Source of the DNA: Oleiharenicola sp.
GTDB taxonomy: Bacteria > Verrucomicrobiota > Verrucomicrobiia > Opitutales > Opitutaceae
Length of the DNA: 55,322 nucleotides
Reading direction: 5' to 3'
NCBI GenBank assembly: GCA_025363455.1
Contig: JANYDW010000032.1
Coordinates: forward strand, 1-55,322
Each line of letters begins with the position of its first letter. The first letter of the stretch is position 1. Of this stretch, positions 14,457 through 53,174 are shown one piece after another. The position numbers and the translations under genes are program-made. Under the pieces are notes generated by a model. The model saw only the letters and a list, made by a program, of their open reading frames with translations. It was not told the origin of the DNA and ran no database searches.

Positions 14457-16046
14457 TCAGACTCTGGGCTGGTAGATGGTTTGCTTCAGGTCCGCGGCCA
14501 GTGCCACGCGGAAGGCCGCGAGGTTCTTCACGGCGCCCAGCGCGACCAGTTGGTTGGCGAGGTTGCCAACGGCGGTGCCTTCGAGCGCGAAGGCGTGCAC
14601 CGGCAGGCCGGCGGCATCGGCCGTCGCCTGGCAGAGCACGCGGTTTTTTGCGCCCCCGCCGACCATGAGGATGCGTCTGAAGGTCCGGCCGGACAATCTC
14701 TCGAAGTCGCGAATCGCCATGGCGTGCCCCGCGCCGAGGGAATCGCAGATCAGTCGGACGTAACCGGCGAGGTTCCTGGGCAACGGAAGTTTCCGGCGCT
14801 TCAACTGCGCGTCGATGGCCCCCTTCATCGAGGGTGGATTGGCGAACTCGGCGAAGATCATGTCGAGGGTGGTGGATGTGGGAGGGGCTTTACGCCCCGA
14901 CGGTTTCGATTTCGAATGTTCAATGTCGGGGCGTAAAGCCCCTCCCACATTCAGGCCACCGAGTTTCTCCGCGGCTGAAATCAACTTCGCCCATTCGCGG
15001 TCATTCTTCGGACGCTTCGCGAAATCCTTGAGCGTCTGTTCCAGCATCCACAGTCCGATGACGTTGACGAGCGGACGGAATTCGCCGCGGCCCGTGCGGT
15101 CGTTGGCGATGCGGGCGGTGAGGGCGTCGGGCCCGAGCAGGGGCGTCTTGCTTTCAAAGCCCACGAGCGACCACGTGCCGGAGCTGAGGAAAATATCGGC
15201 GCCGTCCGCGGCGGCTGGCATGGCATCGTAGGCGCAGGTGGTATCGTGGCCCGGCACGGCGATGACCTGGGTGTCGGCCAAGGGATCCTTCCTGGGTAGA
15301 GCGGCGACTCCGTCACCGCCGCTGCGCGGACGGAGTCCACGCCCTACCTCGGGTTGCACCCGACCTAATTTCAAACCGCTTGGCACAGGCGTGGTCAGCC
15401 AGAGGTGAGGCACGCGGAAATAGTCCAGCGCGACACGTGACCAGTCGTTGCTGTGCACGTCGAGCAGTTGCGTCGTGCTGGCAATCGACAGCCCGTTGGC
15501 CATGCGACCGGACAACAGGTAGTTGAAGTAATCGGGCAAGAAGAGGCAGCGCGTGGCGAGATCGGTGATCGCGGGACACGACCCGACGGTCTCGGCCAGT
15601 TGGAGCGAACTGTTGTAGAAGACCGCCGGGATGCCCGTGGCCGCGTAGATGCGGTCAAGCGCGGCGCGGGTGTTCGTCAGGTGTTGCAGGCCCGGCTGCG
15701 TGCGGGCGTCGCGGTAGGCGTGCGGGGGAAAGACGATCCTGCCCGCATCGTTCACGAGCACGTAGTCCACACCCCAGGTGTCGACGCCGACCGACGCGAG
15801 GGTCGCGCCCTTCGGCAAGGCGGCCACGGCGGCGCGGAGGCCGGCCTGCACTTCCGTCCACAGGCCGGGGATATCCCAATAATCGTGTCCGTTAGCCGAG
15901 CGCAGTGAGTTAGGAAAGCGATGGACTTCCCGCAAAGACAGTCGCGGCGTAAAGCCCCTCCCACCCTGCTGCCACGTGCCAAGGATGACCCGGCCGCTGG
16001 TAGCGCCGAGATCGATGGCCGCGCAGTGGATGGTTTTAGGAGGCAT
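14457..16046 (-). CDS. rhaB: Rhamnulokinase with in-frame repeat insertions
   Basis: A 529-residue FGGY-family sugar kinase that phosphorylates L-rhamnulose to L-rhamnulose-1-phosphate using ATP. Motifs are AIDLGATSGRVILG (phosphate 1), VDTWGVDYVLVND, VIAVPGHDTTCAYDAMPAAA, FLSSGTWSLVGFESKTPLLG and a C-terminal LMVGGGAKNRVLCQATADAA. Typical RhaB is about 490 residues. The excess is explained by segments encoded by palindromic DNA at residues ~27-35 (GGRGFTPR), ~233-250 (VGRGLRPRSGGDGVAALP) and ~366-390 (a perfect 25-base-arm hairpin). None breaks the frame and catalytic motifs are intact, so the enzyme may be active. The start is ATG 16046. It is third in the deoR-rhaEW-rhaB-rhaA order. Confidence 0.93.
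   Translation of the reverse strand: MPPKTIHCAAIDLGATSGRVILGTWQQGGRGFTPRLSLREVHRFPNSLRSANGHDYWDIPGLWTEVQAGLRAAVAALPKGATLASVGVDTWGVDYVLVNDAGRIVFPPHAYRDARTQPGLQHLTNTRAALDRIYAATGIPAVFYNSSLQLAETVGSCPAITDLATRCLFLPDYFNYLLSGRMANGLSIASTTQLLDVHSNDWSRVALDYFRVPHLWLTTPVPSGLKLGRVQPEVGRGLRPRSGGDGVAALPRKDPLADTQVIAVPGHDTTCAYDAMPAAADGADIFLSSGTWSLVGFESKTPLLGPDALTARIANDRTGRGEFRPLVNVIGLWMLEQTLKDFAKRPKNDREWAKLISAAEKLGGLNVGGALRPDIEHSKSKPSGRKAPPTSTTLDMIFAEFANPPSMKGAIDAQLKRRKLPLPRNLAGYVRLICDSLGAGHAMAIRDFERLSGRTFRRILMVGGGAKNRVLCQATADAAGLPVHAFALEGTAVGNLANQLVALGAVKNLAAFRVALAADLKQTIYQPRV
14876..14950. repeat. 75-bp perfect-arm palindrome inside rhaB
   Basis: Arm 14876-14900 is the exact reverse complement of 14926-14950 (25 bases each) around a 25-base loop. 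The total is 75 bp, exactly 25 codons. The arm GAGGGGCTTTACGCCCCGA is found in related form between genes at 19540-19618 and 20396-20420. Confidence 0.92.
15295..15348. repeat. Second in-frame palindrome inside rhaB
   Basis: Arms GGTAGAGCGGCGACTCCGTC and GACGGAGTCCACGCCCTACC pair at 17 of 20 positions. The 54 bp equal 18 codons. It belongs to the GTAGGGCG family also seen at 26482-26541. Confidence 0.82.
15941..15966. repeat. Third repeat fragment inside rhaB
   Basis: GTCGCGGCGTAAAGCCCCTC plus CCACC matches one arm of the 14876-14950 palindrome. It encodes GGRGFTPR next to the phosphate-1 loop, where RhaB proteins normally run directly into LSLREVHRF. Confidence 0.75.
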
Positions 16047-18518: not shown

Positions 18519-18655
18519 TTAGCCAGAGAAGGCACAAAGGCGCAGAAGGATTGGCCACGAAAAACACGAGGAACACAAAAAGACGGAGTCGATCCCATCG
18601 ATCGATCAGGTCCGAATCTTTTTGTGTTCTTTGTGTTTTTCGTGGCCATAAATGT
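18519..18655. repeat. Nested palindromic element N4 (deoR-rhaEW gap)
   Basis: Arms TGGCCACGAAAAACACGAGG and TTGTGTTTTTCGTGGCCATA surround a central CGATCGATC-type spacer. It is the same outer-arm family as N1 and N2. Confidence 0.85.
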
Positions 18656-19539: not shown

Positions 19540-19723
19540 CGTCCCCGTAGGAGCGGCTTTATGCCGCGATGATTGCCCGCCGACATTCGGGGCGGGGCGG
19601 AAAGCCCCTCCTGCATCCAACACACCCCGTCGCTTCGCGCCACCCCTCTTCCTAGAGGGGAATCAATCGTGGGTGGTTACTGATCCCCTCTAGGAAGAGG
19701 GGTGCCCGCAGGGCGGGGTGTGT
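19540..19723. repeat. Composite repeat with element E2 (left copy of a direct pair)
   Basis: A GTAGGAGCGGCTTTATGCCG-type palindrome is followed by E2 (19620-19723). E2 has a left arm ACACACCCCGTCGCTTCGCG ending CTTCCTAGAGGGG and a right arm CCCCTCTAGGAAGAGGGGTG ending GGGCGGGGTGTGT. The unit AAAGCCCCTCCTGCATCC plus E2 plus TAGGCGCC recurs at 20396-20545. Confidence 0.88.
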
Positions 19724-19766: not shown

Positions 19767-20333
19767 TTACTTCCTTGCCCGAAGGGCGATAAAGGCCACC
19801 GCACAGGGCTTCTTCGTGTTCCAGTCTCCCTGCAGGTGCCAGCGCGTCACCTTGCTCCAGTTCATTTCGCTGTCCTTCCCCTTCTCGCCGGGGTTGAGTT
19901 TGAAATCCGCCTTCCGGGCCCGAACCCAAACCGGCTGTCCGGGAGCCAGCTGGTCGATCGCAATGCGCGCCGTGAACTGCGTGCCATCAGCGTCGTTGAG
20001 TGCAATCGTGACCTGCGGGACCTCGTTGCCCGGCACCACGGCGAGGGCGAGCTCGATATCGGTCACGGCGGTGAGATCAAGTTCCGACCCGAGGTCGTGA
20101 CCGAAGCCACCGGCTCCCTGCGCGCCCTTGGCGCCGAGCACGATCAGGCCGCTCTTGGTTACCGCGACCTTTTTCTCCCAGGTGCCATATTGGAAAATGG
20201 CCGCGGTGTCGGTCCGCAGATCGGCGATGCTGAGTGTGTCATCGGCCGCAGGCTTGGCGGGGTCGGCAGCATCCAAGCCGGACGCCAGCAGCAGACCGCA
20301 GGAAAACAGGATGATGTGGGGCAGGTTTTTCAT
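19767..20333 (-). CDS. Secreted hypothetical protein between direct repeats
   Basis: A 188-residue exported protein with a good signal peptide (MKNLPHIILFSCGLLLASGL, DAA). The mature part looks like a small beta-rich domain (IFQYGTWEKKVAVTKSGLIV; DIELALAVVPGNEVPQVTIA; WSKVTRWHLQGDWNTKKPCA) resembling carbohydrate-binding or heparinase-associated jelly-roll folds, but no family is certain. The start is ATG 20333; the longer frame to 20426 reads into a repeat and is rejected. The gene is bracketed by two nearly identical ~150 bp direct repeats (19540-19735 and 20396-20545), a layout that would let it be gained or lost by recombination. Confidence 0.75.
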   Translation of the reverse strand: MKNLPHIILFSCGLLLASGLDAADPAKPAADDTLSIADLRTDTAAIFQYGTWEKKVAVTKSGLIVLGAKGAQGAGGFGHDLGSELDLTAVTDIELALAVVPGNEVPQVTIALNDADGTQFTARIAIDQLAPGQPVWVRARKADFKLNPGEKGKDSEMNWSKVTRWHLQGDWNTKKPCAVAFIALRARK

Positions 20334-20395
20334 GAGAGGTGATGACCTAGTCACTACCGGCTGATCGGAGCAGGACAAATGCTTGCAGCATTTGG

Positions 20396-20545
20396 GTCGG
20401 GGCGTAAAGCCCCTCCTGCATCCCACACACCCCGTCGCATTGCGCCACCCCTCTTCCTAGAGGGGAACCAATCCTGCGCGGTCACTAGTCCCCTCTATGA
20501 AGAGGGGTGCCCGCAGGGCGGGGTGTGTAGGCGCCCTACGTCGAA
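20396..20545. repeat. Composite repeat with element E3 (right copy of a direct pair)
   Basis: GTCGGGGCGTAAAGCCCCTC, CTGCATCC, then E3 (20424-20528), then TAGGCGCCCTACGTCGA. It parallels 19540-19735. Its distal end supplies the TAG stop codon of the UxaA-family gene at 20536. Confidence 0.88.
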
Positions 20546-32437: not shown

Positions 32438-32520
32438 GTCATCCCGAGCCTTGCGAAGGATCCAAGAGTTGTCCGTGATCGACCGTTCCTTGGATCCTTC
32501 GTTCCACTCAGGATGACCGC
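32438..32520. repeat. TCATCCTGAGCG-type palindrome, copy 1
   Basis: GTCATCCCGAGCCTTGCGAA, GGATCCAAG ... CTTGGATCCTTCGTTCCACT, CAGGATGAC. Related copies lie at 35098-35183 and 48372-48455. Confidence 0.85.
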
Positions 32521-35097: not shown

Positions 35098-35183
35098 CCG
35101 TCATTCTGAGCGCAGCGAAGAATCCAAGAGGTTCGTCGCCATGTCCGTCTTCCTTGGATCCTTCGCTGCGCTCAGGATGACGA
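35098..35183. repeat. TCATCCTGAGCG-type palindrome, copy 2
   Basis: CGTCATTCTGAGCGCAGCGA, AGAATCCAAG ... TTGGATCCTTCGCTGCGCTC, AGGATGACG. Its last ATG (35177) is the likely start codon of the next gene. Confidence 0.88.
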
Positions 35184-44958: not shown

Positions 44959-44972
44959 TGGATGCAGCTGTA

Positions 44973-45064
44973 GGGCGGGATTTCCAAATCCCGCCGGCTC
45001 GGAAATGGAGGGCCGTCCTCCCAGTCGACAGTTCCAAGGCGGGGTTCGGAGACCCCGCCCTACA
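44973..45064. repeat. GTAGGGCGGG palindrome pair (intergenic)
   Basis: TAGGGCGGGATTTCCAAATC, CCGCC ... GGCGGGGTTCGGAGACCCCG, CCCTACA. The 27 bases 45038-45064 are identical to the insert inside mqo (11853-11879). It sits between converging genes. Confidence 0.88.
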
Positions 45065-45071
45065 GATTACT

Positions 45072-48359: not shown

Positions 48360-48371
48360 AATAAAATCTCC

Positions 48372-48455
48372 CGTCATCCTGAGCGCAGCGAAGGATCCAA
48401 GCCCGCGAATGCGATTTTCGAATTCGTGGATCCTTCGCTGCGCTCAGGATGACGG
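48372..48455. repeat. TCATCCTGAGCG-type palindrome, copy 3
   Basis: GTCATCCTGAGCGCAGCGAA, GGATCCAAG ... GGATCCTTCGCTGCGCTCAG, GATGACGG. It lies between two minus-strand genes. Confidence 0.9.
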
Positions 48456-49772: not shown

Positions 49773-52700
49773 TCAGCGTTCAAGGGTGGCGGCCATCAGG
49801 CCGATGACGACATCGTTGGCCAAGGCACGCACGGTGACTGAACGCAATTCCTTGCCTGGATCAATCGCCAGCCCCAACACGGTGGCCGCACCGCCCGGCA
49901 CCACTTTGCCTAGGCCTTTAAAGGTGGCGGCATCGAGCACGCGAATGGCACCGGTCTTGAGGTCCACGCGGGTGGGGAGCGGCCCGGCGAGGCGGAACTG
50001 ATAGTCGTCCGTGAAGTAGTCCTGCTCGATCGGCCACCACGTTTCCGGATTGCGCAGCGCGAGCCGGGTGGTGGTGCCGTCGGCGTAGGCGACAACGACC
50101 TCGCCGTTGTCGAGTCGGCTTTGCATCGCATTAGTCGACCCGGCCATCAGGAGGTCGAGGTACCGGGCCTTGCCGGTGAGCGGCATGGTGGCCTCGCGAG
50201 GGTAGTTGTCCCATTGGGACACAAAGATAATGTTCGGCGTCGCGCCCGGCCCCGGCGTGGCAAAGGGTACGCCGTTGGGCAGGGTGATGCGGCCGGAGTG
50301 GGCGGCCGCGGCGTCGCGCAGACCGGTGTCGTCGATTTCCGCCGTGGCGTTGACGTGCCCGGCCCAGTAACCGATGCCCTGCGACGGCAGCGCGAGCGAA
50401 ACAAAGGGCGAGCGCGGCGACAGGTATTTGTCTGGCTTGAAGATATCCGTGACGCGGTCGTTGAAATGCGTCGTCAGGTCGATCGGGTCTGAGTGGATCG
50501 ATCCAACTGGGGAAACCTGGCCTCTAGATGGCGGGTTGGCTGCAGTCGTGAATTCAACAAGCCCGTCCGGAGGCCGGGCTCCACCAGTGATATCCCCCTC
50601 CCAGCTGATCTTGATGGTAGCAGATTCGGCGGGCGCTGAGTCGAAGACGAGCCATTCGTTATACACCTCTGACGCGGTTTGCTGACCGTTGATTTCCACC
50701 ATGGCCGAGAGGCCGCGCAGTGGAACTTGCAGCCGCAAAGTCATCGGACGGTCGAACCCCGACGAGATAGTGAAATGTTCTATGCGCCCTTCGCGCCGAT
50801 AGTCCAAGCGGACCCGCGGGTGCTCGAGTCGGACGTGCGTCCAGTCGGTCGGCCAACCTGGTGCGATCACCAACTCGCCCGCCAGGGCGTCAGGTCGCAC
50901 GCCAAACAAGCCCTCTACGACTGCGCGCGATAGCACGCCGGAGCCATCGGCAAAGTCGCGCTGGGATTCACGGCGGTAGGCATCGAGATAATTCATCGAA
51001 CCGACGTTGCCCGGCGAAATACCCATGAACATTGAGGTCAGCAGGGAACTCTTCAGCAGCGTGAACGCCTCGGCCGGGCGTTCCGCCTGCCACAAACCCA
51101 GCGCAGTGTGCACGTTTTCCCCCATGACGACGTTGTTCAGCGACCACGTGTACGGCACCCAATCGGTAGTCGGCAGCAGGCCGTACTTCGCATCGTCCGG
51201 CACACCCGGACCGCGGACCGACAGTCGAGGCATTCTTTTGATAATGTCGTCGACCATCTGCTTGTCTTCTTCCGGCGTCGGTATCCCGGAGTCCATCGTG
51301 TGATAGAAGGTCCAGAGCGCCGCGCTCGGATGGACTAGCTGCATACCAAGCAGATCTTTGCTCTCGGCGAAGTGTCCGTCAACCCAGAGCAGCTTTCGCA
51401 TGCCGGTCGCGATCAGTTCGGCTTCACGAGCATAAGGCGCGGGATCGGCCCCGACAAGAGGTGCGAGGCGTGCGGCCATCTTGTTGTGCCAGTAATTATA
51501 AGCCGAGGCGTGCGCGGTGCCGCCACCGCTGTATTGCAGGTCGTCGCTCGCCCAGATGGCGGCGTAGGCCTCGTAAAGCGGGAGTTTCTCGCCTTTTACC
51601 TCAAACTCGCGACGGAAGAGCCGGCGTTCCCAAGCGAGGTGGCGCTCGATGACCGGCCACATCTTCTTCGCGAACTCGACGTCGCCGGTCCACAGCAGGT
51701 GACGGAACAGTGCGTCGATGAACACCAGGTTCATGTCGTAGTGGCTGTTCGAGAGGTCGCCGTTGCTGTGTAGCGCGGCCTCGCTGCGGGCGAGGTTGGA
51801 TTTCCCGTCGGGCGGCGGGAGTTTGGCCGGGATCGGGTCGGTGTTCTGGCGCGTGGCCCAATACTCGAAGTGTTTCCGCGCGCGGTCGGGCCAGCCCAGG
51901 GCGTCGAGCGCATAGGGCCCGCGCCACCCGAGGAGCCTGGTGCGCCACGCGATGGCGCCGTGCATGATCGCCTGCGAGGGCTCGTCCCACACCGCGTCGG
52001 CCGCGACATTGAGCGCGCCGACCGCAGCGTTGAGGTACGGATCGGGCGTCTCCACTGAAACGCGGCCGCGCAGGGCGGCGTAGTGAGCCTCGGTCGCGGC
52101 GAAGAGTTGGGGAAGGTCGGCTTGGTGGAATGCGCTGACCGCAGCGGATTTTTCCGTGACAGACGTACCGGGGTCAGCGCGCTCCACCCGCGGTGCGGTC
52201 ACTTCGCGGTAAGTTTCGAGATCGGTGGTGGTGGTTCCATCCGTTGCCAGACGCTGGAGAGAAAGGTAAAGTGGCGTGGCGTTGGCCAGCGCCACACGTC
52301 CGACCACGACCGGATAGTCCGGTGCGCGGATGAAGACCGCCGAGAGCAACGTCGACAGGTCGTTCCATTGGCCGGCGTCGCCGACCGTGAGCCGGGAGCC
52401 CGCGGGCCCAAGGCCGGTGATGGTCGCCGCCTTGGCGCGCAGGGTGAAGGCCCCGTCGGCGAGCCCGACGGCGTTGTCGCGGCAGAACTCCGGCTGCAGC
52501 TGGAACCATTCGCTGATCGGCACTTTCTCGGTGCCGATGTCGCCGTCGCGGATGCCGCGCTGGCCGTTGACGCCACCGAAGGCCCAAACGAGGTCCAGCC
52601 CGGGCTCGAGCCCCTCCCCCTCCACACGGACGCCCAGTCCCTCCGTCTGGTGCCAGGCCACCACCGCGAGCCGGAGCACCCCCGCCGGGCCGAGCAGCGG

Positions 52701-53174
52701 GTCGCGGATCTCGTAGAGCAGTTCGCCCGGGCGGTAGCGCGTAGTGATCTGCGCGGCTTCGTGCAGCCACTTGGAGGAAAACGCGCTGGGGTCACCGCGA
52801 TCCACCTTGCGAATTCCCAAGCGCAGATTCCCACCCCGGCCGGGCAGGTAGAGGATGAACTCGGGCTTGTCTCCGCCGTCGACCCGGAAGGCGGTGTTGC
52901 CGCCATAAAGCGGGCGGTTGAAAAACTCGGTCCCGTTCTCGATGACAAAATCGCCGTGGTCCGGCCGGTAGCGCAGCGGCCGTTCGATATTGCCGGCGAG
53001 GTTGGGCCACAGCCGGTTCGCGGTCGGCGCCTGTGCCCTCAAGGGCCTGCCGCCATCCGGCCATCCACCGAGAACGACCCAAGCCAATGTGTAACGTAAT
53101 ACGTTACATATTTCGCGGGGTAGGCCGGGTTTGGCTCGGGGTGATCCCAAAGAGGGCTGGCTTGGATCGGACAT
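49773..53174 (-). CDS. DUF4450-like large glycosidase-type protein
   Basis: A protein of up to 1133 residues. The body resembles DUF4450 proteins, which have a six-hairpin glycosidase barrel (possibly GH142-related; recalled, not verified). Motifs are NIERPLRYRPDHGDFVIENG, FFNRPLYGGNTAFRVDGGDK, RTRLLGWRGPYALDALGWPD, LHSNGDLSNSHYDMNLVFID and ISPGNVGSMNYLDAYRRESQ. Extra residues around 865-885 (GARPPDGLVEFTTAANPPSR) coincide with repeat-like DNA at 50520-50592. The true start is unclear: an operator-like palindrome at 53090-53108 lies inside the frame, and no clean signal follows ATG 53174, so initiation may be downstream. It probably acts on an RG-I or RG-II side chain. Confidence 0.8.
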   Translation of the reverse strand: MSDPSQPSLGSPRAKPGLPREICNVLRYTLAWVVLGGWPDGGRPLRAQAPTANRLWPNLAGNIERPLRYRPDHGDFVIENGTEFFNRPLYGGNTAFRVDGGDKPEFILYLPGRGGNLRLGIRKVDRGDPSAFSSKWLHEAAQITTRYRPGELLYEIRDPLLGPAGVLRLAVVAWHQTEGLGVRVEGEGLEPGLDLVWAFGGVNGQRGIRDGDIGTEKVPISEWFQLQPEFCRDNAVGLADGAFTLRAKAATITGLGPAGSRLTVGDAGQWNDLSTLLSAVFIRAPDYPVVVGRVALANATPLYLSLQRLATDGTTTTDLETYREVTAPRVERADPGTSVTEKSAAVSAFHQADLPQLFAATEAHYAALRGRVSVETPDPYLNAAVGALNVAADAVWDEPSQAIMHGAIAWRTRLLGWRGPYALDALGWPDRARKHFEYWATRQNTDPIPAKLPPPDGKSNLARSEAALHSNGDLSNSHYDMNLVFIDALFRHLLWTGDVEFAKKMWPVIERHLAWERRLFRREFEVKGEKLPLYEAYAAIWASDDLQYSGGGTAHASAYNYWHNKMAARLAPLVGADPAPYAREAELIATGMRKLLWVDGHFAESKDLLGMQLVHPSAALWTFYHTMDSGIPTPEEDKQMVDDIIKRMPRLSVRGPGVPDDAKYGLLPTTDWVPYTWSLNNVVMGENVHTALGLWQAERPAEAFTLLKSSLLTSMFMGISPGNVGSMNYLDAYRRESQRDFADGSGVLSRAVVEGLFGVRPDALAGELVIAPGWPTDWTHVRLEHPRVRLDYRREGRIEHFTISSGFDRPMTLRLQVPLRGLSAMVEINGQQTASEVYNEWLVFDSAPAESATIKISWEGDITGGARPPDGLVEFTTAANPPSRGQVSPVGSIHSDPIDLTTHFNDRVTDIFKPDKYLSPRSPFVSLALPSQGIGYWAGHVNATAEIDDTGLRDAAAAHSGRITLPNGVPFATPGPGATPNIIFVSQWDNYPREATMPLTGKARYLDLLMAGSTNAMQSRLDNGEVVVAYADGTTTRLALRNPETWWPIEQDYFTDDYQFRLAGPLPTRVDLKTGAIRVLDAATFKGLGKVVPGGAATVLGLAIDPGKELRSVTVRALANDVVIGLMAATLER
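50520..50592. repeat. Probable repeat-derived insert inside the DUF4450 gene
   Basis: CCGTCCGGAGGCCGGGCTCC, ACC matches the arm CGGAGAGGCCGGGTTCCACC of the element in the UxaA-family gene. The frame is kept. The left boundary is vague. Confidence 0.6.
53090..53108 (-). promoter_or_regulatory. Perfect palindrome, candidate operator
   Basis: TGTAACGTAATACGTTACA is a palindrome with perfect 8-base arms around AAT, typical of LacI or GntR-type operators. It lies about 70 bases into the longest frame of the DUF4450 gene, suggesting the real start is downstream of it. Confidence 0.7.

Follow-up and report, generated by a model that had tools for sequence, protein, structure and literature searches.

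A REPIN lying in frame within a rhamnulokinase gene of a Verrucomicrobiota genome, in a loop that carries other inserts in related genomes

How does an exact palindrome come to lie inside the coding sequence of an enzyme, and does it belong to the protein or to a mobile repeat? This is the question raised by the rhaB gene found in the window, i.e. the whole stretch of 55,322 nucleotides that was analysed. The features needed to follow the argument are these:

14457..16046, minus strand: rhaB, rhamnulokinase, 529 aa from the ATG, with Pfam FGGY_N and FGGY_C; host of three in-frame REP insertions
14876..14950, no strand assigned: REPIN, two inverted REP-A units with a 23-base spacer, in frame in rhaB
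14877..14901, plus strand: REP-A unit TGTGGGAGGGGCTTTACGCCCCGAC, exact match
14925..14949, minus strand: REP-A unit, inverted copy, exact match
15295..15348, no strand assigned: second palindrome in rhaB, REP-F, GTAG-tagged, in frame, with 20-base arms containing mismatches, encoding VGRGLRPRSGGDGVAALP
15941..15965, minus strand: single REP-A unit with 2 mismatches, in frame near the rhaB start, encoding GRGFTPR
20396..20420, minus strand: single REP-A unit with 2 mismatches, probably intergenic

The open frame of rhaB extends to 16106. The best NCBIfam match of its product was the rhamnulokinase family TIGR02627, below the curated cut-off of that family, and the best Foldseek match was E. coli RhaB (2cgj). 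An earlier note on this DNA had described a 75-bp palindrome with 25-base arms and a 25-base loop. The total is exact, and the division is different: the 26 bases of one arm (14876-14901) are the exact reverse complement of the other (14925-14950), a spacer of 23 bases separates them, and at 97% complementarity the arms reach 29 bases (14873-14901 and 14925-14953). The palindrome lies, without a stop, in the single open frame of rhaB on the minus strand, although the 75 bases start at the second base of a codon. The resulting peptide is VGGALRPD-IEHSKSKP-SGRKAPPT. Each arm contains the unit TGTGGGAGGGGCTTTACGCCCCGAC, in which GTGG (GTAG in many copies) precedes a GGGGC/GCCCC stem-loop. The 75-base palindrome is a REPIN, made of two inverted copies of a GTGG/GTAG-tagged REP, which we call REP-A. 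The earlier note had overlooked the two additional in-frame REPs of rhaB, as well as the other repeat families present in the same loop of relatives. The REP-F unit was found in 6 of 14 genomes, and at four places in the genome under study if the rhaB copy is counted.

REPs are defined as extragenic elements, and their usual location is outside genes. A 24-base REP unit (up to 3 mismatches) occurs 4 times in the window versus 0 expected from 100 shuffles, and the whole genome (4.23 Mb) has, with up to 3 mismatches, 48 + 56 = 104 units versus 0 for the reversed pattern; because both controls gave 0, chance is excluded for REP-A. In the genome stretches taken for closer study, which contain all 104 units, 119 matches with up to 4 mismatches were distributed over 79 sites. 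Inverted pairs of 58-84 bases, most commonly 73, make up 40 of these 79 sites. In most units the first bases are TGTGG or TGTAG, and a GGGGC..GCCCC stem comes next. REP-A therefore presents what characterises a REP, namely a GTAG/GTGG tetranucleotide beside a short stem-loop and a high number of dispersed copies, often in inverted pairs, and this arrangement is the anatomy of REPINs. The related arm copy at 20396-20420, which had been placed between genes, is real; an ORF of at least 150 aa that overlies it (19767-20426, minus strand) matches no Pfam family, so that its location is probably intergenic. REP-A is present in 14 of 57 genomes, including the one studied here.

A mobile repeat of this type would need an enzyme. 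Genome-wide, 11 matches to Y1_Tnp were obtained, and one of them (G000:C42:61982-62497, 172 aa; G000 is the genome under study) has REP-A on both sides, inverted. This protein, a predicted REP-associated tyrosine transposase (RAYT), scored 86.6 bits against NCBIfam REP_Tyr_transpos, the cut-off being 80. We examined 28 RAYT-like loci out of 30 retrieved, from 45 matches listed in the genus, and REP-A lay on both sides in five of them: the one just mentioned, one each in G010 and G005, and two in G011. For REP-A, then, a RAYT bordered by the same REP is found in its own genome and in three others. The five loci are those that are unbroken and share at least 50% identity with the RAYT of G000:C42. 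An inverted flank with a score of at least 17, counted with no shuffled control, is common to 22 of the 28 loci, and in many cases it is a REP from a different family. Across genomes, the pairing of RAYT and REP-A is incomplete. In G004 and G012, with 64 and 56 REP-A units, no REP-A was found beside any RAYT-like locus examined there; in G007 (25 units) the sole relative is broken and has no REP-A beside it; in G017 (46 units) and G018 (17 units) the relatives are flanked by other REPs. Judging from its sequence and its flanks, the RAYT at G000:C42 is likely the cognate enzyme of REP-A. In addition, two RAYTs with 45-48% identity to it (L201 in G017:C125 and L210 in G000:C25) have a sister REP, GTAGGTCGGGCTTTACGCCCGAC, at their flanks, which may be an instance of a RAYT and its REP changing in step.

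We consider, with a probability of about 0.85, that the palindrome is a REPIN of this dispersed family, likely mobilised by a RAYT and likely inserted into a loop of rhaB predicted to be flexible, where the frame was left open. The RAYT would move the REP-A element in single-stranded form; frameshifting insertions and those in structured parts would be purged, and REPs would persist only in loops able to tolerate a linker of some 20-30 residues. To our knowledge, RAYT transposition has never been caught in the act. The protein model used here (67 sequences, mean pLDDT 83.5) replaced an earlier one built from 20 similar sequences, which was discarded with a mean pLDDT of 54.7. In the model, the REPIN residues have low confidence (pLDDT below 50 at 366-378 and 384-388) and form no secondary structure; helices 349-361 and 407-417 lie on either side. 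The REPIN is predicted to add a floppy loop of 25 residues to RhaB. We infer that these residues are harmless and neutral to the enzyme, so that the insert would be a flexible linker without a catalytic role.

The comparison with other RhaB proteins shows the same loop in different states. Between the anchors PKNDREW and SMKGA, the protein under study has 65 residues and that of Lacunisphaera limnophila (G003) has 40; the difference of 25 residues equals 75 bases, and this is the gap that the earlier note had anticipated in close relatives. No target-site duplication was recovered, and no exact pre-insertion sequence either: the loop of L. limnophila has a different sequence. Among 17 genomes of the genus, one row was cut by a contig end and 16 were counted: the loop is occupied in seven, and nine have no long insert. 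REP-A fills the loop in G000, G005 and G017, and G004 has a pair of REP-C units there. G011 and G014 each carry a REP-D pair, which may go back to a single common event, and G016 has a putative repeat. REP-C was found in 8 of the 14 genomes searched, with 15 units in G004, and REP-D also in 8 of 14, with 18 units in G011 and 30 in G014. The G016 insert (class B) gave one match in its own genome, which was itself; it was therefore ruled out as a demonstrated dispersed repeat, and not every occupant of the loop is a proven REP.

In a wider set of 230 RhaB rows, consisting of 120 proteins (the best 120 of 6515) and 110 loci (the list of RhaB loci being the best 80 of 167), near-duplicates included, 154 have no long insert at the loop, 26 carry the REP-A peptide and others carry different inserts. 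The class without insert was defined as at most 43 residues between the anchors and takes in the contig-end row L141, at least one single short REP (L047), and rows such as L130 and L132, which have short loops resembling direct repeats; classes E, G, H and I of the peptides, like the mixed class X, are based mainly on protein sequence. The claim that RhaB proteins have no counterpart of this region is thus correct for the 154 rows, and fails for those with different inserts at the same place. On a FastTree tree built with the insert columns removed, the minimum number of changes was 20 for REP-A, 6 for REP-C and 4 for REP-D; after collapsing branches with support below 95, it was 10, 4 and 4. 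These counts come from one gene and do not distinguish gain from loss. The rhaB loop appears to be a landing spot used again and again, and we propose that it collects REPs repeatedly because only linker-tolerant loops retain insertions.

A different way to populate the same place in many species would be the spread of the repeats by recombination among the rhaB alleles of these species, rather than by fresh transposition each time. The recurrence of the site itself would agree with such a process, and the tree that suggests many changes is a FastTree tree of a single gene. However, the spacers differ, and for families A, C and D the family found in the loop is the one dispersed in that very genome. 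We regard recombination as an unlikely general explanation.

REP-A also reaches other genes. At least 12 of the 79 sites lie inside nine recognisable genes, in which a known family surrounds the insert or lies next to it: SufD, CysJ-like, DmsB/C-like, HrpA, a carboxyltransferase, DUF748 (2 sites), an M29 peptidase (2), HolB-like and rhaB (2). In the DmsB/C-like fusion the unit sits between the two domains. The count is a lower bound, since sites beyond those translated were rated by codon score alone. Outside the window 15 sites were translated, and five were left out of the intragenic count: C39:15825-15897, whose 339-aa frame has no Pfam family, and C40:35720, C77:24593, C37:1985 and C47:18409, where according to the codon scores the REP is outside the likely coding part or the frame is doubtful. 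Genes are strongly avoided by REP-A (binomial p about 2e-49, given an assumed coding share of 88%), and this avoidance would persist if part of the remaining 67 sites were intragenic as well. As a separate observation, the C-terminal half of HrpA (L182) contains more repeat-like stretches besides the REP-A unit, e.g. RTTGRAGFPQDESKANLPGGQVPPQG.

One reading frame prevails among the intragenic copies. Eleven of the 12 sites encode VGGALRPD, SGRKAPPT or both, in this or a closely similar form; the first insert of rhaB (GRGFTPR) does not. The naive p of this preference is 6e-4 under a null of our own, in which the frames open to pairs, forward singles and reverse singles give 1/2, 1/3 and 1/2, respectively, and units are taken as independent. 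A pair length of 1 mod 3 was observed in 5 of 5 pairs in genes and in 17 of the 35 others, a borderline difference (p = 0.053).

The frame preference could also be read as the sign of inserts selected for, either as a useful new surface on RhaB and other enzymes or as a regulator of the mRNA through a strong hairpin. Indeed, folding of the 195 bases around the REPIN site of rhaB gives -99.3 kcal/mol, 11 of 12 sites use the favoured frame, and three of the nine genes are hit twice. Against this, the same loop is filled by different families with unrelated peptides, nine of the 16 congeners do without a long insert, and the genes hit span unrelated functions. We find selection of the inserts quite improbable.

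That the region is an ancestral loop of RhaB, palindromic by happenstance, can be dismissed as practically untenable: a peptide of the form VGGALRPD...APPT does occur at the same place in 26 of 230 rows, near-duplicates included, but the same units are found in unrelated genes and between genes, a minimum of 10 to 20 changes of insert state is needed on the tree without insert columns, and the arms are nearly identical in rhaB genes whose remainder has diverged. The earlier note had set this comparison as the test of its claim that the insert is not ancestral, and the claim is borne out. Between the gene under study and that of G017, third codon positions agree in 58% of the cases outside the inserts, whereas the REPIN arms agree in 47 of 48 bases and in 15 of 15 third positions, with unrelated spacers. 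With G005 the arms agree in 42 of 48 bases and 12 of 15 third positions, versus 48% outside the inserts; by this divergence, the REP-A arms shared with G005 look older than those shared with G017.

The carboxyltransferase (L166) offers a possible parallel to rhaB. In the genome under study it holds a REP-A pair in a loop (G000:C37:27768-27840). In this protein and 120 homologues (P0123-P0242, the best 120 of 8000 scored), the loop measures 58-93 residues, and 58-60 in 28 of the 121 rows; several rows have the REP-A peptide and others resemble different repeats, as seen at the protein level. It looks like a second landing site of the same kind. A broader proposal, which we put forward tentatively and hold to be somewhat doubtful, is that a few loops (rhaB, the carboxyltransferase and probably others) in Lacunisphaera and its kin are shared landing pads where several RAYT systems repeatedly insert their REPINs at the same codons, and that REP sequences have been moulded to encode in one frame a harmless linker rich in Gly and Pro. 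If so, REPINs would act as protein linkers that move and would continually supply new loops.

Rickettsia palindromic elements (RPE) are in-frame palindromes located in many unrelated genes. REP-A shares with them the in-frame insertion in unrelated genes, a likeness drawn from their description; it differs in phylum and in having a likely RAYT. The host is not one of the Rickettsiales and belongs to the same genus as L. limnophila (G003). The earlier note had seen here a coding-compatible mobile palindrome comparable to RPE in an unrelated phylum. The dispersed, coding-compatible family is supported; the RPE-like novelty is not, since the element is a REPIN, or GTAG REP, with a likely RAYT. 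Like the known REPINs or BIME-like GTAG REP dimers associated with RAYT (TnpA-REP), the rhaB element has a GTGG/GTAG foot and a short stem-loop, and REP-A shows inverted pairing, high copy number and a RAYT flanked by the same REP. Those elements are mostly described as extragenic, whereas the rhaB copy is intragenic, and its movement is one that we infer.

In-frame REPs are not new for the Verrucomicrobiota, because they were reported in Opitutus terrae in 2013. That work (Di Nocera et al. 2013, PMC3733652) records the largest number of intragenic GTAG REPs in O. terrae, where in-frame dimers encode 20-30 residues and some genes are hit twice; it also notes that recB carries different REPs at nearly the same position in two species of Xanthomonas. 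Another report (PMC8266576) describes how TnpA-REP cleaves REPs, with GTAG acting as a guide. The phylum, the in-frame dimers of 20-30 residues and the doubly hit genes are common to both cases; what differs here is one loop with three REP families verified as dispersed in one genus, the frame bias and a RAYT for one family. Searches of an open-access library, the supplementary tables of PMC3733652 aside, gave no description of a single loop that several REP families occupy across a genus with a biased frame. Sister species whose common loop holds different REP families offer a natural insertion series, with near-empty sites and likely cognate transposases, from which one could measure how targets are chosen, how frames are selected and what an insert costs a protein. 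It is also a warning for annotation, as inserts of some 12-30 residues in such proteins may be repeat DNA and not evolved domains.

The window contains further repeats. One of them is in a coding frame:

52124..52188, minus strand: REP-C-like pair, in frame in a 1133-aa DUF4450 ORF (49773-53174, minus strand), encoding VERADPGTSVTEKSAAVSAFH

Its peptide VERADP... resembles the REP-C insert of the G004 RhaB. Inverted repeats of the type CGTCATCCTGAGCGCAGCGAAGGATCC, which resemble CGTC-tagged REPs, were seen at 48371-48455, 35099-35182 and 32438-32517. Finally, more palindrome families (GTAGGGCGGG.., GGCCACGAAAAACACGAGG.., CACCCCTCTTCCTAGAGGGG..) are present at 44968-45065, 18552-18648, 19641-19704 and 20446-20509, apparently in intergenic positions.
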